Below, piece after piece: positions 11,734-41,846 of a stretch of 64,000 nucleotides of DNA. Each line of letters starts with the position of its first letter. Within the stretch, counting starts at the first letter, position 1. Source of the stretch: Streptomyces sp. P9-A4 (GTDB lineage: Bacteria > Actinomycetota > Actinomycetes > Streptomycetales > Streptomycetaceae). The DNA is taken from contig NZ_JAZIFY010000001.1 of NCBI RefSeq assembly GCF_036634195.1, forward strand, positions 6,148,501 through 6,212,500, in the 5' to 3' direction. The notes under the pieces were generated by a model. That model ran no database searches, was not told the origin of the DNA, and saw nothing but the letters and a program-made list of their open reading frames with translations. Both the position numbers and the translations under genes were made by a program.

Positions 11734-13191
11734 TCAGTCCTCGCGCAGGGCGCGGACCGCCTCGGCCACGCGCTTGCCGTAGTCCGCGTCGGCGGCGGCG
11801 AAGTGCGCGAGGTTCTTCTCGATGACGTCCTCGCGGGACACCTGGGACAGACCGCCGGCGATGTTGGCGATCAGACGGCCCTTCTCGTCCTCGGACATCA
11901 GGCGGTAGAGCTCACCGGCCTGGAAGAAGTCGTCGTCCTTGGTGTGCGCGGGCGCCGCGTGGGTGCCGGTCCAGCCGTGGACGGCGAGCGGGGCGGAGAG
12001 CGCCGCGTCGGTCTGGGCCGGGCCCTGGTACGAGTTGGGCTCGTAGTTCTTGTCGTGGCGCGAGCCCTGGCGGGTGGCCATGGCGCCGTCGCGGCCGTAG
12101 TTCTCGGCCACGGTCGCCTTGGGGGCGTTCACCGGCAGCTGGGTGTGGTTCACGCCGAGGCGGTAGCGGTGGGCGTCCGCGTAAGCGAACAGGCGGCCCT
12201 GGAGCATCTTGTCCGGCGAGGGGCCGATGCCCGGGACGAAGTTGTTCGGGGAGAACGCGGCCTGCTCGACCTCGGCGAAGACGTTGTCCGGGTTGCGGTC
12301 GAGGACCAGCCGGCCGACGCGCTGCAGCGGGTAGTCGCTGTGCGGCCAGACCTTGGTGAGGTCGAAGGGGTTGAAGCGGTAGTCCGCGGCCTCGGTGGCC
12401 GGCATCACCTGGACGTAGAGGGTCCAGGAGGGGCTGACACCGCGCTCGATCGCCTGGAGCAGGTCGGTCTGGTGCGAGTTGGCGTCCTTGCCGACGAGCT
12501 CGGCGGCCTGGTCGGCGGAGAGGCTGCGGACGCCCTGGTTCGTCTTGAAGTGGTACTTGACGAAGAAGGCCTCGCCCGCCTCGTTGCTCCACTGGTAGGT
12601 GTGGGAGCCGTAGCCGTTCATGTGACGGTACGAGGCCGGGATGCCGCGGTCACCCATGAGCCAGGTGATCTGGTGGGTGGCCTCGGGGGCGTGCGCCCAG
12701 AAGTCCCAGACGTTGTCCGCCTCCTGCTTGCCCGTGAAGGGGTCGCGCTTCTGGGAGTGGATGAAGTCGGGGAACTTGATCGGGTCCTTGATGAAGAACA
12801 CCGGGGTGTTGTTGCCGACGAGGTCGTAGTTGCCCTCTTCGGTGTAGAACTTCAGGGCGAAACCGCGGGGGTCGCGCACCGCGTCCGCGCCGCCGAGCGA
12901 GTCGGCCACGGTGGAGAAGCGGATGAAGGTCTCGGTCTTCTTGCCGACCTCGCCGAGGAAGCCGGCCTTCGTGTAGGCGGTGACGTCGTCGGTCACCTCG
13001 AAGTAGCCGTACGCGCCGGAGCCGCGGGCGTGGACCACGCGCTCCGGGATCCGCTCACGGTTGAAGCGCGCGAGCTTCTCCAGCAGGTGCTGGTCCTGGA
13101 GGAGGATCGGGCCACCGACGCCGGCGGTGGCGGAGTTCTGGTTGTCGGCGACGGGGGCGCCGGACTCGGTCGTAAGCACGCGCTTCGACAT
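11734..13191 (-). CDS. katA: Catalase, small-subunit heme type
   Basis: This 485-residue heme catalase dismutates H2O2. The catalytic histidine is H54 in [15 protein letters not shown], the active-site asparagine is in [19 protein letters not shown], and the heme-ligand tyrosine is in [14 protein letters not shown]; the length is that of clade 3 enzymes. The ATG at 13191 follows GGAAGG; a longer in-frame reading to 13446 runs over the promoter and was rejected. Its -35 box is covered by an 18-base palindrome almost identical to the one before the urate oxidase operon. Since urate oxidase makes H2O2, the enzyme probably serves purine breakdown rather than general stress. That link is inference. 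Confidence 0.95.
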
Positions 13192-13231: not shown

Positions 13232-13272
13232 GCGTAAATTCGGCTCGAACGTGACGTCAACAGTTTGTTGAA
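13232..13272 (-). promoter_or_regulatory. Catalase promoter with shared urate-type operator
   Basis: On the minus strand TTGACG (plus 13255-13260), a 17-base spacer and TTACGC (plus 13232-13237) form a promoter. The palindrome TTCAACAAACTGTTGACG (plus 13255-13272) includes the whole -35 box. The urate oxidase operon has TTCAACAAAGTGTTGACG at the same place relative to its -35, differing at one base. Confidence 0.75.
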
Positions 13273-13378
13273 AAGGAAGTGTGGTGTTCCGGTCGGCGGC
13301 GACGCCTGGGCGCGACAGGACAGGTTGTCAGCGCCGCCGCCGACCGGAAATCCGGGGGCCCCGCGAGGGGGTGGTGGG

Positions 13379-14293
13379 TCAGACCTGCTGGCCGGAGAGG
13401 CGCTCGACGGCGCGCAGCAGGGCCGAGTGGTCCAGGCCGCCGTCACCCTGGGCGCGCAGCGAGGCGACCAACTGGGCGACGACCGCGCCGACCGGGAGGG
13501 CCGCGCCGACGTTGCGGGCGGCGTCGGTGACGATGCCCATGTCCTTGTGGTGCAGGTCGATCCGGAAGCCGGGCTTGAAGTCCCGGTTCAGGAAGTTGTC
13601 CTTCTTGCGGGTCAGCACGGTCGAGCCGGCCAGACCGCCGTTGAGGACGTCCAGGGCGGCCTGGAGGTTCACGCCGGACTTCTCGAGGAAGACGACGGCC
13701 TCGGCGCAGGCCTGGATGTTGACCGCGACGATCAGCTGGTTGGCGGCCTTCACCGTCTGGCCGGAGCCGTGCGGGCCACAGAGCACGATGGTCTTGCCGA
13801 GGGCCTCCAGGATCGGGAGGGCCTCGTCGAAGTCGGCCTGCTCGCCACCGACCATGATCGAGAGCACCGCCTCGATGGCGCCGGCCTCGCCGCCGGACAC
13901 CGGGGCGTCGATGACGCGGATGCCCTTCTCGGCGGCGTTCTTGGCCAGGTCGACCGAGGTCTGGGGGGTGATCGACGACATGTCGACGATCAGCGCGCCC
14001 TGCTTGGCGTTCTCCAGGATGCCGGCAGGGCCGTACGAGATGGCCTCGACCTGCGGGGAGGCGGGCACCATCGTGATGATGACGTCGGCGTCCTGGACGG
14101 CCTCGGCGATCGATCCGGCGGAGGTGCCGCCGGCCTCGGTCAGGCGGTCCAGCTTGTCCTGCTCAAGGGTGAAGCCGGTGACCGAGTAGCCGGCCTTGAT
14201 GAGGTTCTCGGACATGGGGGAGCCCATGATGCCGAGGCCGATCCATGCGATCGCCGGGCGGGTGGGCTGGGAGGAGTCAGCGAGATTGCTCAT
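13379..14293 (-). CDS. glxR: 2-hydroxy-3-oxopropionate (tartronate semialdehyde) reductase
   Basis: This 304-residue member of the beta-hydroxyacid dehydrogenase family reduces tartronate semialdehyde to D-glycerate, directly using the Gcl product. The dinucleotide-binding motif is [17 protein letters not shown], the substrate-binding motif [11 protein letters not shown], and the catalytic lysine lies in [12 protein letters not shown]. The ATG at 14293 follows GAGAGG. It lies 45 bases after hyi on the same strand, so hyi-glxR form one operon under the paired AllR-type sites before hyi. Glycerate kinase, the next enzyme, is not in the window. Confidence 0.93.
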
Positions 14294-14338
14294 GAGGGTG
14301 CCTCTCAAAACAAGGTGATACGGGGGAGGGGGCCTGCG

Positions 14339-15190
14339 TCAGCGGGCCGGGCGGGCTTCGGCGGGCAGCCACTCGAAGGAGGCGGCGGCGTCGGCGGCCT
14401 TGTACTCCAGGCCGATCCAGCCGTCGTAACCGGCCTTCCTCAGCTCGTCGAGGAGCTGCTCCAGGGGCAGGTCGCCGGTGCCCGGCGCGCCGCGGCCCGG
14501 GTTGTCCGCGATCTGGACGTGGCCGGTCTTGGCCGCGTACTCCGCGATGACCTGGCTGACGTCCTCGCCGTTCATCGACAGGTGGTAGATGTCGAGGAGG
14601 AACTTGGCGTTGCCGAGTCCGGTGGCCGCGTTGACCTTGTCGATGACCTCGATGGCCGAGGGGGCGCTCACCAGCGGGTAGAGCGGTGACTCCGGCTTGT
14701 TGAGGGTCTCGACGAGGAGGATCGCTCCCACCCGGTCGGCGGCGCGGGCGGCCAGGACCAGGTTCTCCAGGGCGAGGGTGTCCTGGATCCGGGGGGCGAC
14801 GCCCTCCACACGGTTGCCGTAGAGCGCGTTGAGCGCCTTGCAGCCGACCGAGGCGGCGAAGTCGGCCGCCACCTCGATGTTGGCGCGGAAGCGGTCCGAC
14901 TCCTCACCCGGTACGGAGAGGGCCCCGCGGTCCGGGCCGGGCAGCTGCCCGGCGTAGAAGTTCAGTCCCACCAGCTGGGTGCCGGCGTCCTCAAGAGCCT
15001 TCTTGAGGGCGTCGAGCTCGCTCTGCTCGGGGGTGGCGGTGTCGATCCAGGGCCACCACAGCTCGACCGCGGTGAAGCCCGCCGCGGCGGCGGCCGCGGG
15101 GCGCTCCAGGAGCGGGAGTTCCGTGAAGAGGATCGACAGGTTCACATCGAAGCGCTGGTCCGAGCCGGCGCCTACTGAGAAGCGGGCCAT
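14339..15190 (-). CDS. hyi: Hydroxypyruvate isomerase
   Basis: This 283-residue TIM-barrel protein of the xylose isomerase-like superfamily interconverts hydroxypyruvate and tartronate semialdehyde. Catalytic glutamates of the Hyi pattern are visible in LLVETLNKPESPLYPLV and GWIGLEYKA, with metal-binding residues around LLDIYHLSMNGED and GHVQIADNPGRGAPGTG. It is the first gene of the hyi-glxR operon. The 5' untranslated leader is short (about 44 bases) and is occupied by one of the two operator copies, so repressor binding could affect both initiation and elongation. Confidence 0.92.
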   Translation of the reverse strand: MARFSVGAGSDQRFDVNLSILFTELPLLERPAAAAAAGFTAVELWWPWIDTATPEQSELDALKKALEDAGTQLVGLNFYAGQLPGPDRGALSVPGEESDRFRANIEVAADFAASVGCKALNALYGNRVEGVAPRIQDTLALENLVLAARAADRVGAILLVETLNKPESPLYPLVSAPSAIEVIDKVNAATGLGNAKFLLDIYHLSMNGEDVSQVIAEYAAKTGHVQIADNPGRGAPGTGDLPLEQLLDELRKAGYDGWIGLEYKAADAAASFEWLPAEARPAR

Positions 15191-15205
15191 GAGGGGCGGC
15201 GCTCC

Positions 15206-15270
15206 TTCCGTATCGCGGAAGTAAGTTTCTGTCTGACGGAATGTTGCAAGGGGGTTGCCTCGCTTGTCAA
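15206..15270 (-). promoter_or_regulatory. hyi-glxR promoter with paired AllR-type operators
   Basis: On the minus strand TTGACA (plus 15265-15270), an 18-base spacer and CAACAT (plus 15241-15246) form the promoter. The palindromes TTCTGTCTGACGGAA (15227-15241) and TTCCGTATCGCGGAA (15206-15220) start exactly 21 bp apart. The first covers the predicted start site and the second lies in the leader, the same geometry as at gcl. Confidence 0.75.
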
Positions 15271-15315
15271 GAGGTCCCCGCAGGTCCGGGGCTGCCGCAG
15301 GCCGGATCGGGGCCG

Positions 15316-15321
15316 TAGTTT
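15316..15321 (+). promoter_or_regulatory. -10 box for a leaderless transcript
   Basis: TAGTTT lies exactly six bases before the ATG at 15328, so transcription would begin at or next to the start codon. No clear -35 box is visible. Confidence 0.45.
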
Positions 15322-15327
15322 GGGGCC

Positions 15328-15582
15328 ATGGTGCGTTTGAGAGTGGAGTTCACGACCGAGCCGTTCGACCTCGACGAGGCCCCGGCGCACGCGGTCGTAG
15401 CTCGTGAGGTCATCCAGTCGGCCGAACTGGACGCGGTCGATGTCGGCCCCTTCGGCAATACGGCGGAAGGTGGCGCCGACGCGGTGCTCACCGCGGTCGA
15501 CTCGCTGCTGCGCAGGTCGCTCGCGGCCGGCGCCACCCGCGTCTCGCTCCAGGTCAATGTGATCGGTGAGGGGGAGAAGTGA
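15328..15582 (+). CDS. Small MTH1187/thiamine-binding-fold protein
   Basis: This 84-residue protein resembles the MTH1187/YqgV ferredoxin-like fold: an opening strand VRLRVEFTTEPF, the central GPFGNTAEGGADAVLTAVDSL, and a closing strand ATRVSLQVNVIGEG. Family members bind thiamine-like or other small ligands as multimers, but few have a proven role. It has no membrane segment or signal peptide. Its stop overlaps the GTG of the next HTH gene (GTGA), so the two are translationally coupled; a ligand-binding partner for that DNA-binding protein is an attractive but unproven idea. The pair is divergent from hyi and precedes the urate oxidase operon. Confidence 0.65.
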   Translation: MVRLRVEFTTEPFDLDEAPAHAVVAREVIQSAELDAVDVGPFGNTAEGGADAVLTAVDSLLRRSLAAGATRVSLQVNVIGEGEK

Positions 15583-15965
15583 GCGAGCACCCGTTGGTGG
15601 CGGCGGTGAAGCCCCTGGTCGACGCCATGGGCGGCGAGCTGCTGGTCCCCGCGCAGGCGGAGGCCGACGACGTCGTCCTGTCCTGGGAGGGCGAGGACGT
15701 CCTCGCCGTACGGCTGCCCCAGCTGTCCGAATCCCTCGATCACATCCTCGCGGCGATGGAGCGGCGGCACGGGGTGCCGCTGGCCGAACTCGACCGCAAG
15801 GCCAAACAGGAGGCGGTACGGCTGCTGGAGGCGCGCGGCGCCTTCTCGGTGCGCCATGGAGTGGAGACGGTGGCCGGTGCACTCGGTGTCAGCCGCTTCA
15901 CCGTGTACAACTACCTCAACAGGGAGACCGCCCTGAACAGGGAAAAGGCCGCCAAGGGCGACTAG
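15579..15965 (+). CDS. DauR-type HTH protein, candidate urate/catalase regulator
   Basis: This 128-residue protein has a C-terminal helix-turn-helix of the DauR/YheO type (HTH_22): KQEAVRLLEARGAFSVRHG leads into ETVAGALGVSRFTVYNYLN. The N-terminal 75 residues are short compared with the PAS-like domain of full-length YheO proteins, so ligand sensing may be supplied by its coupled MTH1187-like partner. The GTG start overlaps the partner's stop. It ends at a good intrinsic terminator just before the urate oxidase promoter. I propose it as the candidate binder of the TTCAACAAACTGTTGACG-type palindromes; this is positional inference only. Confidence 0.7.
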   Translation: MSEHPLVAAVKPLVDAMGGELLVPAQAEADDVVLSWEGEDVLAVRLPQLSESLDHILAAMERRHGVPLAELDRKAKQEAVRLLEARGAFSVRHGVETVAGALGVSRFTVYNYLNRETALNREKAAKGD

Positions 15966-15983
15966 TTGATCACCTGAGACCAC

Positions 15984-16017
15984 AAGCCGTCGTCCAGATG
16001 TCGGGACGACGGCTTTT
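15984..16017 (+). terminator. Intrinsic terminator after the HTH gene
   Basis: AAGCCGTCGTCC (15984-15995) pairs perfectly with GGACGACGGCTT (16004-16015) around an eight-base loop and runs into TTTT (16014-16017). Confidence 0.88.
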
Positions 16018-16030
16018 GCGTGGCCGAGTT

Positions 16031-16071
16031 TTCAACAAAGTGTTGACGTTGTGTTGTGGAGGGCGTTAGCT
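16031..16071 (+). promoter_or_regulatory. Urate oxidase operon promoter and operator
   Basis: TTGACG (16043-16048), a 17-base spacer and TTAGCT (16066-16071) form the promoter. The palindrome TTCAACAAAGTGTTGACG (16031-16048) spans the -35 box and differs at one base from the catalase operator in the equivalent orientation. A bound protein would block polymerase. Confidence 0.75.
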
Positions 16072-16120: not shown

Positions 16121-16654
16121 GTGACTTCAGGTACGACACCGGGTCTCACCCGGTTCAACACCTCGGCGGACAGCGAGGCCGTCGCCGCGCTCCACGAGGT
16201 GTGTTCCAGTTCGGCGTGGGGGAGCAAGGTCCTCGCCCAGCGCCCGTACTCCACCGCCGAAGCTCTCTTCCTCGCCAGTGACGCCGCCATGGCCGAGCTG
16301 ACCGCCGAGGACCTCGCCGAGGCGATGGCGGGGCACCCGCCGATCGGTCGTCCGAAGGCAGGGGACCCGACCTCCTCCCGCGAACAGAGCGGAATGGCCG
16401 GCGCCTCCGATCAGCTCAAGACCGAGATGCTCGACCTCAACCTGGCCTACCAGGACAGGTTCGGTCACGTCTTCCTCATCTGCGCCACCGGCAGGACCGG
16501 CGAGCAGATGCGCGACGCGCTCCGGGAGCGGATCGAGAACTCGCCCGAGGCGGAGCGGGAGATCGTCCGCACCGAACTGGGCAAGATCAACCGAATCCGG
16601 CTGACCCGTCTCGTAGAGACCTCCGAGACCTCCGAGGAAGAGAGCTCCGCATGA
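16121..16654 (+). CDS. uraD: OHCU decarboxylase (UraD)
   Basis: This 177-residue enzyme decarboxylates 2-oxo-4-hydroxy-4-carboxy-5-ureidoimidazoline to S-allantoin, the last step of urate degradation. The catalytic histidine motif is MAGHPPIGRPKAG, followed by SSREQSGM and the GHVFLICATGRTGEQM segment of the family. The start is GTG at 16121. Its end overlaps uraH by four bases (ATGA). It heads the uraD-uraH-urate oxidase operon, which has its own promoter and operator about 50-90 bases upstream. Confidence 0.93.
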   Translation: MTSGTTPGLTRFNTSADSEAVAALHEVCSSSAWGSKVLAQRPYSTAEALFLASDAAMAELTAEDLAEAMAGHPPIGRPKAGDPTSSREQSGMAGASDQLKTEMLDLNLAYQDRFGHVFLICATGRTGEQMRDALRERIENSPEAEREIVRTELGKINRIRLTRLVETSETSEEESSA

Positions 16655-17055
16655 GCACCGACACCACGGCCTCGGTGTCCACGCACATCCTGGACACCAG
16701 CGTCGGCCGCCCCGCCGAGGGCGTGGCCGTCACGCTCGCGGCCCGTGGCGGCTTCGACGCGGAGTGGGTCGCGCTCGGCGGTTCGGCCACCGACGCGGAC
16801 GGACGCTGCAAGGACTTGCCGGCGCTGCCGGAAGGCACCACCCACGTACGACTCGACTTCCAGGTCGAGACGTACTTCTCCCATCAGCACAGTTTCAAGA
16901 AGCAAGCCGAGGCGCAGCAGGACGCCCCCCGCGTAAGGGACAGCGGTGCGTTCTTCCCCGAGGTGGCGATCACTTTCGCCGTCACCCCGGGCGAGCATTA
17001 CCACGTACCGCTGCTGCTCAACCCGTTCGGCTACTCCGTATACCGAGGGAGCTAG
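16651..17055 (+). CDS. uraH: 5-hydroxyisourate hydrolase (UraH)
   Basis: This 134-residue transthyretin-related enzyme hydrolyses 5-hydroxyisourate, the product of urate oxidase, to OHCU. The N-terminal THILDTSVGRPAEGV and the C-terminal HVPLLLNPFGYSVYRGS are diagnostic; the final YRGS tetrapeptide separates the enzyme from vertebrate transthyretin. It acts as a cytoplasmic tetramer. It starts inside the last codon of uraD and is followed after five bases by the urate oxidase gene. Confidence 0.95.
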   Translation: MSTDTTASVSTHILDTSVGRPAEGVAVTLAARGGFDAEWVALGGSATDADGRCKDLPALPEGTTHVRLDFQVETYFSHQHSFKKQAEAQQDAPRVRDSGAFFPEVAITFAVTPGEHYHVPLLLNPFGYSVYRGS

Positions 17056-17060
17056 CAGAC

Positions 17061-17984
17061 ATGCCCACGATTCTCGGCCAGAACCAGTACGGCAAAGCAG
17101 AGAACCGCGTCGTCAAGATCACGCGGGACGGCGACACCCACCACATCAAGGACCTGAACGTCTCCGTCGCCCTCTCCGGCGACCTCGACGACGTACACCT
17201 CACCGGCTCGAACGCCCACTGCCTCCCCACCGACACGACGAAGAACACCGTCTTCGCGTTCGCCAAGAAGTACGGGATCGAGTCCGCCGAGCAGTTCGGC
17301 ATCCACCTCGCCCGCCACTTCGTGACGAGCCAGGAGCCGATCAAGAAGGCGCGCATCCGGATAGAGGAGTACTCCTGGGAGCGCATCGCGTCCTCCGAGG
17401 CCAACTCCAAGTTCATCGGCGCCGACGAGGTCAACCACTCCTTCGCCCGCAAGGGCCAGGAGACCCGGGTCACCCAGATCACCTACGACGGCCGGACCTG
17501 GGAGATCATCTCCGGTCTCAAGGACCTCGTCGTCATGAACTCCACCAACTCGGAGTTCTGGGGCTACATCAAGGACCAGTACACGACGCTCCAGGAGGCG
17601 TACGACCGCATCCTGGCCACGCAGGTGTCCGCCCGCTGGCGGTTCAACTGGACCGACGACGACCAGCGCATGCCGAACTGGGAGCGGTCCTACGAGCAGA
17701 CCAGGAAGCACATGCTCGAGGCCTTCTCGGAGACGTACTCGTACTCCCTCCAGCAGACGCTGTACCAGATGGCCACGCGCATCATCAACCACCGCTCGGA
17801 GATCGACGAAGTCCGCTTCTCGCTCCCGAACAAGCACCACTTCCTGGTCGACCTCGAGCCCTTCGGCCTGAAGAACGACAACGAGGTCTACTACGCCGCC
17901 GACCGCATGTACGGCCTCATCGAGGCCACCGTCCTCCGCGACGGAGCCACGGCGCAGATCCCGGTCGACATGACCAACCTCTAA
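17061..17984 (+). CDS. uox: Urate oxidase (uricase)
   Basis: This 307-residue cofactor-free enzyme oxidises urate with O2 to 5-hydroxyisourate and H2O2. It is a full-length uricase: opening QNQYGKAENRVVKITRDG, the NAHCLPTDTTKNTVFAFAKK motif with the catalytic threonine, the arginine-containing substrate loops, and the C-terminal LPNKHHFLVDLEPFGLKNDNEV. It starts at ATG 17061, five bases after uraH. No peroxisomal-type tail is expected or present. Its H2O2 explains the matching operator on the nearby catalase gene. Confidence 0.97.
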   Translation: MPTILGQNQYGKAENRVVKITRDGDTHHIKDLNVSVALSGDLDDVHLTGSNAHCLPTDTTKNTVFAFAKKYGIESAEQFGIHLARHFVTSQEPIKKARIRIEEYSWERIASSEANSKFIGADEVNHSFARKGQETRVTQITYDGRTWEIISGLKDLVVMNSTNSEFWGYIKDQYTTLQEAYDRILATQVSARWRFNWTDDDQRMPNWERSYEQTRKHMLEAFSETYSYSLQQTLYQMATRIINHRSEIDEVRFSLPNKHHFLVDLEPFGLKNDNEVYYAADRMYGLIEATVLRDGATAQIPVDMTNL

Positions 17985-31455: not shown

Positions 31456-31509
31456 TTCTGAACAGTGGATACTAGTTTCCTCATGGTGGAAGTTCAATGG
31501 TTTGTTGAT
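31456..31509 (-). promoter_or_regulatory. Malate synthase promoter carrying both operator types
   Basis: On the minus strand TTGAAC (plus 31492-31497), a 17-base spacer and TAGTAT (plus 31469-31474) form a good promoter. TTCCTCATGGTGGAA (31477-31491) fills the spacer and TTCTGAACAGTGGAT (31456-31470) covers the start site, 21 bp apart. The second palindrome type, read ATCAACAAACCATTGAAC on the minus strand (plus 31492-31509), covers the -35 box. Confidence 0.75.
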
Positions 31510-39353: not shown

Positions 39354-40160
39354 TCAGCCCTGGCCGTTCCCCGAGGTGTTCGCCAGGGCCGCCGAGAGGT
39401 CCCGGGCCACTTCCTGGAGGATCGGGACGATCTTCTCCGTGGCCGCCTCGGTCACGCGGCCCGCCGGGCCCGAGATCGAGATCGCCGCCGCGGTGGGGGA
39501 GTCGGGGACCGGCACCGCGAGGCAGCGGACTCCTATCTCCTGCTCGTTGTCGTCGACCGCGTACCCCGTCTCGCGGACCGCGACGAGCGCGTCGAGGAAG
39601 CCGTCCGGCGTGGTGATGGTCTTCTCGGTCGCGGCGGGCATGCCGGTACGGGCGAGCAGCGCCCGCACCTCCTCCGCCGGGGTGTGCGCGAGCAGCGCCT
39701 TGCCGACGCCGGTGGAGTGCGGCAGCACCCGCCGGCCGACCTCGGTGAACATGCGCATCGAGTGCTTGGACGGCACCTGCGCCACGTACACGATCTCGTC
39801 GCCGTCGAGCAGTGCCATGTTCGCGGTCTCGCCGGTCTCCTCGACGAGCCGCGCCAGGTAGGGGCGGGCCCAGGTGCCGAGGAGGCGGGAGGCCGACTCG
39901 CCGAGGCGGATCAGACGGGGGCCGAGGGCGTAGCGGCGGTTGGGCTGCTGGCGGACGTATCCGCAGGCGACCAGGGTGCGCATCAGACGGTGGATGGTGG
40001 GGAGCGGGAGTCCGCTGCTGGCGGAGAGCTCGCTCAGCCCGACCTCGCCCCCGGCGTCGGCCATCCGCTCAAGGAGGTCGAAGGCACGCTCAAGGGACTG
40101 GACGCCCCCGCTCGCGGCGGGTTTGGCGGCGTCGGTGGTGCTGGCGCTGGACGTCGGCAC
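39354..40160 (-). CDS. allR: IclR-family repressor of allantoin catabolism, AllR-like
   Basis: This 268-residue protein has an N-terminal winged helix (VQSLERAFDLLERM to RYALGPRLIRLGESAS) and a C-terminal IclR effector domain (GDEIVYVAQVPSKHSMRMFTEVGRRVLPHSTGVGKALLA, VDDNEQEIGVRCLAVPV). I chose GTG at 40160 behind GAAAGGA; a TTG at 40190 is the alternative. It is divergent from allB, as allR is in Streptomyces coelicolor, where AllR represses allantoin genes. The TTCY-N7-RGAA pairs in this window are its likely sites, including one between it and allB that could also give autoregulation. The effector is probably a pathway intermediate. Confidence 0.9.
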   Translation of the reverse strand: MPTSSASTTDAAKPAASGGVQSLERAFDLLERMADAGGEVGLSELSASSGLPLPTIHRLMRTLVACGYVRQQPNRRYALGPRLIRLGESASRLLGTWARPYLARLVEETGETANMALLDGDEIVYVAQVPSKHSMRMFTEVGRRVLPHSTGVGKALLAHTPAEEVRALLARTGMPAATEKTITTPDGFLDALVAVRETGYAVDDNEQEIGVRCLAVPVPDSPTAAAISISGPAGRVTEAATEKIVPILQEVARDLSAALANTSGNGQG

Positions 40161-40511
40161 GTCAACGGTCCTTTCGGGGCAGGCGGGCAAGGCAGCAGCC
40201 TACCGGGCGCCCCCGGCCGGGGCACACGGTCCCGGTGTCGGCGTCCGCGCCGGTCAGGGCGTGTTTGTCCGGTGTCGCCGACGGTCCGGGGCGGTCCGCG
40301 AACGCCCCGCATGTGCGGAGCTACGTTCTACTGTACGAAATTTACATTCCACTTCGTGGAAACGTCCAAGCGGGGTTCGCTCGGGCCCGATGCTGGAAGT
40401 GTGCCCTTGACGGCATGTCGTCCGGAAGTGAAGACTCCTTCAACAGTTCGTTGAATTCCCTGCCGGTGGATTCCCGCCGGAGCACTTGAAGAACTTGAAG
40501 AAGGGGTACGG
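40161..40511. promoter_or_regulatory. allR/allB intergenic control region
   Basis: The 351 bases between the divergent genes contain a pair of AllR-type sites, TTCTACTGTACGAAA (40326-40340) and TTCCACTTCGTGGAA (40347-40361), again 21 bp apart. A perfect copy of the second palindrome type, TTCAACAGTTCGTTGAA, is at 40439-40455. TACATT at 40343-40348 may be a -10 box but lacks a clear -35. The allB ribosome-binding site is AAGAAGGGG just before 40512. Confidence 0.72.
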
Positions 40512-41846
40512 GTGGACGTCAACCTGGTCCTGCGCTCGACGCGTGTCATCACCCCCGAGGGGACGCGCCCGGCGTCGATCGCCGTCTCCGGAGGGACGAT
40601 CGCGGCCGTGCTGCCGTACGACGCCGCGGTACCCGCCGGCGCCCGGCTGGAGGACGTCGGCGACGACGTCGTCCTGCCCGGCCTCGTCGACACCCATGTC
40701 CACGTGAACGACCCCGGCCGCACCGAGTGGGAGGGCTTCTGGACCGCCACCCGCGCGGCGGCCGCCGGCGGCATCACCACGCTGCTCGACATGCCCCTCA
40801 ACTCGCTGCCCCCCACGACCACCGTGGAGAACCTGCGCGTCAAGCAGGAGGTCGCCCGGACCAAGGCGCACATCGACGTCGGCTTCTGGGGCGGCGCCCT
40901 GCCCGACAACGTCAAGGACCTGCGCCCGCTGCACGACGCCGGCGTCTTCGGCTTCAAGTGCTTCCTGTCGCCCTCCGGTGTCGACGAGTTCCCCGAGCTC
41001 GACCAGGAGCGCCTCGCGACCTCGCTCGCCGAGATCTCCGGCTTCGACGGCCTGATGATCGTGCACGCCGAGGACCCCCACCACCTCGCCGCCGCGCCCC
41101 AGAAGTCCGGCCTCGCCTACGCCGACTTCCTGGCCTCGCGTCCCCGCGACGCCGAGAACACGGCCATCGAGAACCTGGTCAACCAGGCCCGCCGGCTCAA
41201 CGCCCGCGTCCACGTCCTGCACCTCTCCTCCTCCGACGCGCTGCCGCTGATCGCCGCCGCCAAGGCCGAGGGCGTCAAGATCACCGTCGAGTCCTGCCCG
41301 CACTTCCTCACGCTCACCGCCGAGGAGATCCCGGACGGCGCCACCGAGTTCAAGTGCTGCCCGCCCATCCGCGAGGCCGCCAACCAGGACGCCCTGTGGC
41401 AGGGGCTCGCGGACGGCACGATCGACTGCATCGTCTCCGACCACTCCCCGTCGACCGCCGACCTCAAGACGCCCGACTTCGCGTCCGCGTGGGGCGGCAT
41501 CTCCTCCCTCCAGCTCGGCCTGCCCGCCATCTGGACCGAGGCCCGCCGCCGCGGCTTCGACCTGACCGACGTCGTCCGCTGGATGTCCGAAGGCCCGGCC
41601 CGGCTCGCCGGACTCTCCCGCAAGGGCGCCATCGAGGCCGGCCGCGACGCCGACTTCGCGGTCCTCGACCCGGAGGCCACCTTCACCGTCGACCCGGCCG
41701 AGCTCCAGCACCGCAACCGGATCACCGCCTACGCGGGCAGGACCCTCAGCGGTGTCGTCACCTCCACCTGGCTGCGCGGACAGCGGATCGCCGACCACGG
41801 CACCCTCACCGAGCCCACCGGCCGCCTCCTCGAAAGGAACAACTGA
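40512..41846 (+). CDS. allB: Allantoinase
   Basis: This 444-residue cyclic amidohydrolase opens the hydantoin ring of allantoin to give allantoate. Metal ligands appear in [16 protein letters not shown], the carboxylated lysine in [17 protein letters not shown], further histidines in IVHAEDPHH and [11 protein letters not shown], and the catalytic aspartate in IVSDHSPST. It starts at GTG. It is immediately followed by the allantoicase gene, one base separating stop and start, so both enzymes are made together. Confidence 0.96.

Follow-up and report, generated by a model that had tools for sequence, protein, structure and literature searches.

The window analysed here is a 64,000-nucleotide stretch of Streptomyces sp. 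P9-A4 (GCF_036634195.1, contig NZ_JAZIFY010000001.1, positions 6,148,501 to 6,212,500; coordinates below are those of the stretch), and the element in question is a short palindrome shared by the promoters of a catalase gene and of the urate oxidase operon, together with its candidate regulator. The catalase gene (PF00199) lies at 11734–13191 on the minus strand. The operon, on the plus strand, begins with uraD (16121–16654), encoding 2-oxo-4-hydroxy-4-carboxy-5-ureidoimidazoline (OHCU) decarboxylase, followed by uraH (16651–17055), encoding hydroxyisourate hydrolase, and uox (17061–17984), encoding urate oxidase (TIGR03383). Directly upstream of the uraD operator are two small plus-strand genes overlapping by 4 bases. 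The first encodes an 84-amino-acid DUF77/Thiamine_BP-like protein (15328–15582; PF01910, E 1.2e-4, 22.4 bits), the proposed sensor subunit, and the second a 128-amino-acid HTH_22 protein (15579–15965; PF13309, E 1.5e-20), the proposed DNA-binding subunit. allB (40512–41846, plus strand; TIGR03178), encoding allantoinase, is a further putative target.

The sequence-only reading had claimed near-identical 18-base sites in the catalase and urate oxidase promoters, and these are present: TTCAACAAACTGTTGACG (13255–13272, minus strand) and TTCAACAAAGTGTTGACG (16031–16048, plus strand) agree at 17 of 18 bases, the single difference being central. The identity extends to 20 of 21 bases over 13254–13274 (TTTTCAACAAACTGTTGACGT, minus strand) and 16029–16049 (TTTTCAACAAAGTGTTGACGT, plus strand). 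Behind both sites is a common 17-bp palindrome, TTCAACA-N3-TGTTGAA, of which they are imperfect copies of the form TTCAACA-N3-TGTTGA[A/C]. The match between the two is far beyond chance. With at most three mismatches, the window contains three matches, compared with none in 100 dinucleotide shuffles. TTCAACANNNTGTTGA occurs exactly three times in the 7.54-Mb genome, before catalase, uraD-uraH-uox, and the urease operon, the third copy starting 77 bp upstream of the urease start codon (L001). When one mismatch was allowed, the whole genome gave 10 matches, several of which represent one place on both strands, and the reversed pattern gave 2. A relaxed copy, TTCAACAGTTCGTTGAA, is located in the allB promoter (40439–40455, plus strand), and a weak copy with three mismatches precedes malate synthase (31493–31509, minus strand). 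Perfect copies were found before allB in two Actinopolyspora, three Saccharopolyspora, and two Streptomyces loci.

The HTH_22 protein of the window scores 73.4 bits against PF13309, above the cut-off of 29.6. In this protein, which adjoins the uricase genes, HTH_22 was the sole domain reported at E 0.001, and it does not belong to the MarR type (HucR/PecS). It matches a S. venezuelae entry at 96%, which, by this one protein, places the strain close to that species, and among the 120 of 2893 matches listed in a protein search, the named ones were from Streptomyces and had no function given. In its structure model, the C-terminal part forms helices 73–85, 94–102, and 106–126. In a genome of another family (G106), the DUF77 and HTH_22 domains form a single 190-amino-acid protein, whose gene is followed by the operator and then uox; a second site lies before xdhA. 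A protein search with the fusion listed 120 of 1025 homologues, of which 114 carry both PF01910 and PF13309; the 120 include proteins of Phycicoccus, Pedococcus, Knoellia, Marmoricola, and Amycolatopsis. Read by eye, the chain of a fused homologue (P0091) contains a DUF77 domain, HTH_22, and a stretch resembling the N-terminal region of the HTH protein of Streptomyces. Its model has a mean predicted local distance difference test score (pLDDT) of 81 and a predicted template modelling score (pTM) of 0.56, with good confidence in both domains and low confidence in the linker, and its C-terminal domain is helical. In a Foldseek search with the N-terminal domain, DUF77 and YkoF entries ranked at the top (best E 2.4e-3, none at or below 0.001). 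The separate Streptomyces DUF77-like protein gave no PDB sequence match in the DUF77/YkoF family. Since the structure of YkoF was solved with thiamin, a ligand-sensing role for the DUF77-like domain is plausible.

Conservation was examined in 61 Streptomyces genomes. The exact site was present in 58 of them and the reversed control pattern in none (0/61), while the HTH_22 protein was found in 59 (in G010 as two pieces only) and uricase in 60. Three genomes had no exact site: G043, which has neither uricase nor the HTH_22 protein, and G050 and G010, which are considered below. By coordinates, ca. 20, 5, and 8 kb separate the HTH_22 gene from uox in G051, G057, and G058; the site is still ca. 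1 kb upstream of uox there.

The alignment of the fusion was also used to scan genome contigs, and of at least 568 relatives the 80 best loci were retained. These come from Kribbella, Nocardioides, Amycolatopsis, Prauserella, Kutzneria, Nocardia, Saccharopolyspora, Actinopolyspora, Tsukamurella, Pedococcus, and others. All 80 carry the site at two mismatches or fewer, before uraD (77), uox (2), or uraH (1), with 88 sites versus a single reversed palindrome in 1.56 Mb. In 79 of the 80, no more than 600 bp separates the site from the HTH match; in two Tsukamurella loci, it stands between the divergent regulator and uraD genes. Twenty genomes from these loci all contain the exact site, and 30 loci fetched from them have uraD, uox, xdhA, permease, allB, and cyclophilin-like targets, with a few lacking a target from the panel.

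We also compared genomes with and without the regulator. In a class sample of 197 genomes, every one of the 16 that gave a close match to the regulator (G106 and 15 Streptomyces) had the exact site, versus 15 of the 181 others, and the reversed control occurred in 5 of 197. In the family of G106 (119 genomes; regulator called at E ≤1e-20), 13 of 15 genomes with the regulator had the exact site versus 9 of 104 without it, and the reversed control was found in 3 of 119. In the two exceptions (L275 and L276), a site with two mismatches is found close to the regulator. When only the 40 uricase-bearing genomes of this family were counted, the exact site was present in 13 of 15 with the regulator versus 4 of 25 without it. 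By coordinates, none of the sites in these four regulator-less genomes is near uox, and the four fetched uox regions of regulator-less genomes (L278–L281) had no site within two mismatches. The regulator-less uricase genomes rule out uricase, rather than the regulator, as the companion of the site. Six genera contain members with and without the regulator; five give clean contrasts, and in the sixth (g116), one exact site occurs in a regulator-less genome. In three genomes of g116 (G321, G348, and G365), the regulator is encoded at a distance from uox, so that regulator and uricase are separated, and the 10 sites in their fetched regions precede xdhA (3) or NCS2 permeases (7).

Several observations weigh against assigning the palindrome to this regulator. 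The Fisher P values for the G106 family, 5.7e-10 over all genomes and 2.8e-5 among the uricase-bearing ones, are too small, because the genomes are related and their independence is overstated. The 80 loci were chosen via the regulator, which is usually beside uraD, so that a linked, unrelated passenger could give the same picture. The decoupled genomes, which speak against such a passenger, all belong to g116, in which the regulator-less member G280 has one exact site. Exact sites in regulator-less genomes (9/104 in the family and 15/181 in the class) exceed the reversed control and are not all explained, and both searches capped the first-look candidates that were scored in each genome. The DUF77-like protein of the window, at 22.4 bits, falls below the PF01910 cut-off of 24.9, which fused P0091 exceeds with 32.5 bits. 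In Streptomyces, the HTH_22 protein was not found in G050 (82% complete), a genome with uricase and, before malate synthase, a site with two mismatches; its contig stops within uraD. In G010, the HTH_22 match is split over two frames, which could be a sequencing error, and the uraD site is kept with two mismatches (L105). Finally, 9 of 72 hand-picked Streptomyces sites, described below, lack a panel target.

The catalase in question, defined as an orthologue by at least 86% identity (next matches at most 73%), is present in 37 of the 61 Streptomyces genomes and absent from 24. The site precedes all 37 orthologues (30 from one scan and the other 7 from another); the catalase-uricase pairing is thus conserved wherever the orthologue is present in the genus. 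The site is retained even where the catalase gene is 16–19 kb from the HTH_22 gene (G001, G006, G030, and G049). Two further catalases of the window genome have no site nearby within one mismatch. Catalase was not among the targets in the 30 loci of the 20 other regulator-bearing genomes, and no site in the 80 fusion loci or in the G106 family precedes it; among the genomes examined, catalase is a target solely in Streptomyces. In L286 (G009) and L302 (G024), a site lies near glxR, in the place that catalase has in other genomes, with no catalase match downstream.

Other targets were sought in 71 Streptomyces loci around sites not before uraD; these were picked by hand, so that the following counts are not frequencies. 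Their 72 sites comprise 32 before catalase, 17 in a cydA/cyclophilin-like intergenic region, 12 before ureA, 2 before allB, and 9 without a panel target. Of these nine, L299 and L313 precede a DUF6986 gene (by Pfam for the L299 protein, by eye for the other), the palindromes of L115 and L317 lie between an isochorismatase-type hydrolase and a DJ-1/AraC-type regulator (proteins read by eye), and L122, L286, L288, L302, and L323 could not be linked to the purine pathway. A further site precedes a DUF6986 gene, recognised by eye, at L269:16501, and a DUF6986-like protein is also encoded near the fused regulator in G106 (L107:5223–6479). In other families, sites were found before xdhA, NCS2 permeases, allB, hyi, and xdhC (the last named from a reading of the protein). 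Sites therefore stand before several genes of the pathway, namely uraD/uox, allB, xdhA, NCS2 permeases, urease, and xdhC, as expected of a purine-catabolism regulon; if catalase, the cyclophilin-like gene, and a few unexplained sites are set aside, every target that was identified is a gene of purine, ureide, or glyoxylate metabolism or of urease.

cydA (cytochrome bd) was considered as a target and rejected. In the 17 Streptomyces loci, the perfect palindrome is 7–27 bp from the estimated start of the divergent cyclophilin-like gene (PF04126), and in Nocardia L365 (G382) the site precedes a cyclophilin-like gene with no cydA match within 700 bp. The cydA region of the window genome has no site. 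Perfect palindromes 7–43 bp before the cyclophilin-like gene were observed in L110–L113, L117, L119, L124, and other Streptomyces loci, and in L365. This suggests that the cyclophilin-like protein is part of purine or ureide metabolism.

A second type of palindrome, TTC[CT]-N7-GGAA, occurs in the window upstream of gcl (7153), hyi (15206 and 15227), malate synthase (31477), and allB (40347). These are putative AllR boxes; the box is reportedly that of the 2015 Streptomyces AllR study by Navone. The two copies at 15206–15241 lie between hyi and the regulator pair, and an IclR-family gene adjoining allB (39354–40190) is the AllR candidate. The TTCAACA-N3-TGTTGAA site is not of the AllR palindrome type, and the AllR-like sites of the window differ from it in sequence. 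Upstream of malate synthase (31477–31509), an AllR-like palindrome nearly adjoins the weak copy of the TTCAACA palindrome. There seem to be two layers in the window, the TTCAACA operator at the urate and catalase end and the AllR-like palindrome at the glyoxylate end, with both at allB and malate synthase.

The position of the site relative to the promoter differs from gene to gene. TTGACG overlaps the right half-site in both the catalase and the uraD promoter, as had been noted from the sequence, and at uraD, uox, the permeases, and catalase, TTGAC is in most cases the end of the right half-site and would act as the -35 box. Of the 17-base spacers claimed for both promoters, that of uraD holds (TTAGCT at 17); for catalase, 17 bases give TTACGC and 18 give the better -10 box TACGCT. 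Among the listed promoters of catalase orthologues, the majority show TACGCT or TAGGCT at a spacing of 17 or 18. TAGGGT follows 6–7 bases after the site in most urease promoters, and the distance from the site to the estimated start is 7–66 bp at allB and at the cyclophilin-like gene.

From these data, we infer that a regulator dedicated to purine catabolism uses the palindrome as its operator. In Streptomyces, this regulator would be formed by the two small proteins of the overlapping genes, a sensor with the DUF77/Thiamine_BP fold and the DNA-binding HTH_22 protein, and in Phycicoccus-like bacteria, Nocardioides, Kribbella, Amycolatopsis, and others by one polypeptide. A dimer would sit on the palindrome, over the -35 box at uraD and catalase, and block RNA polymerase. 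It would be released when a purine-pathway metabolite binds the sensor; urate or a neighbour is the natural guess, and hydroxyisourate, xanthine, or allantoin would also be conceivable. Catalase probably joined this regulon in Streptomyces, where the hydrogen peroxide (H2O2) made by urate oxidase would be met by catalase under the same signal. That the pairing serves H2O2 removal is a reasonable interpretation.

Three other explanations have to be weighed against this one. The same regulator bound to the same site might be an activator that recruits polymerase from over the -35 box upon a purine signal. The half-site ending mostly in TTGAC rather than TTGAA at uraD, uox, the permeases, and catalase, as if fitted to the -35 box, is what such an activator would show. 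However, the operator varies in placement, lying also beside the -10 box (urease) and near the start codon (cyclophilin-like gene), which fits a repressor best, and we regard activation as rather unlikely. Quite improbable, in our estimate, is another regulator, such as AllR or a TetR/MarR protein encoded elsewhere, with the HTH_22 pair a mere conserved neighbour. The window does contain an IclR-family gene and ureide genes, the allB and malate synthase promoters carry both palindromes, and a homologue from S. coelicolor is cited as an allantoin-gene repressor in an excerpt of PMC12772271. However, the presumed AllR box TTCC-N7-GGAA is a different sequence, and in the G106 family the site tracks the HTH_22 gene, also where that gene is apart from uox.

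The last of the three holds that the uraD operon is under redox signalling by HbpS-SenS-SenR, the common sequence being just a promoter core. According to sections of PMC4991794, oxidative stress lowers the expression of SCO6209–6211 in wild-type S. coelicolor, mutation of hbpS-senS-senR leaves these genes deregulated, and the region upstream of SCO6209 has a predicted SenR box; this box is, however, rich in GC and does not resemble the palindrome. A mere promoter core would neither conserve the upstream TTCAACA half nor give full palindromes at other positions, and we give this explanation very little credence. As a full explanation of the site, the common promoter core is ruled out by the full palindromes at other promoter-relative positions.

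As a whole, a repressor of purine breakdown, in which the DUF77-like/HTH_22 pair reads the palindrome, is in our judgement a highly probable explanation. It is supported by the conservation of the site, its co-occurrence with the regulator, the domain fusion, and the operator positions. The shared operator and co-regulation proposed by the sequence-only reading have gained support, in that the palindrome is kept exactly in 58 of 61 Streptomyces genomes and before 37 of 37 catalase orthologues. Its view of a purine rather than a general peroxide regulon agrees with the mostly purine, ureide, and urease targets and with the two other catalases that lack the site. The second regulator that it had postulated beside AllR is supported by the different palindrome, and is likely the DUF77-like and HTH_22 pair beside uraD. 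Naming this pair, and adding allB, urease, and, elsewhere, xdhA and permeases as targets, goes beyond that reading. More broadly, we lean somewhat towards a novel type of one-component regulator that is widespread in actinobacteria, in which a purine or urate sensor of the DUF77/YkoF fold is combined with HTH_22, fused or, in Streptomyces, split, acting through one near-unchanged operator across several families and coupling catalase to urate oxidase in Streptomyces.

Were this explanation true, actinobacterial purine breakdown would gain a pathway regulator, proteins known by the generic names of helix-turn-helix and thiamine-binding would become a testable sensor pair, and a peroxide-making enzyme would be paired with its own catalase through a metabolic rather than an oxidative signal. 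Because the operator is short, exact, and conserved, each step can be tested directly. In S. coelicolor, SCO6209 increases together with SCO6247 (named there as dihydroorotase), SCO6248, and a xanthine dehydrogenase gene in a transcriptome, as stated in an excerpt of PMC6629963; we infer that SCO6247 is allB. Excerpts of two further papers call SCO6204 a putative catalase (PMC7324645) and list SCO6208 as a putative transposase (PMC3897704); judged by number alone, SCO6208 would be the HTH_22 gene. Our search of open PMC papers found no paper on a DUF77-HTH_22 regulator or on the palindrome, a result that concerns these papers and makes no claim about absence from print.

Among known systems, HucR of Deinococcus radiodurans (MarR family) is also a dedicated regulator encoded beside a uricase gene, and urate abolishes its DNA binding according to an excerpt of PMC5487221. 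HucR differs in having the MarR fold and one site between hucR and the uricase gene, and it lacks both the DUF77 and the HTH_22 domain. In E. coli and Streptomyces, the IclR-family protein AllR likewise controls the ureide part of the pathway, and the window has an IclR-family gene by allB; AllR differs in its IclR fold and in its reported palindrome. XdhR of S. coelicolor is a TetR-family protein. It likewise represses a purine-catabolic operon, xdhABC, but has another fold and responds to ppGpp and GTP, as described in part of PMC6627660. By profile and fold, the nearest solved relatives of the fused sensor domain are thiamine-binding fold proteins of the DUF77/MTH1187/YkoF group; the DUF77/YkoF entries listed are not described as transcription regulators, whereas here a DUF77-like domain is tied to a helix-turn-helix domain. 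Regulators such as YheO and DauR share the DNA-binding family PF13309 and bear a PAS-like sensor. In the regulator proposed here, the sensor would instead be DUF77/Thiamine_BP-like, either fused to HTH_22 or encoded as a separate protein.

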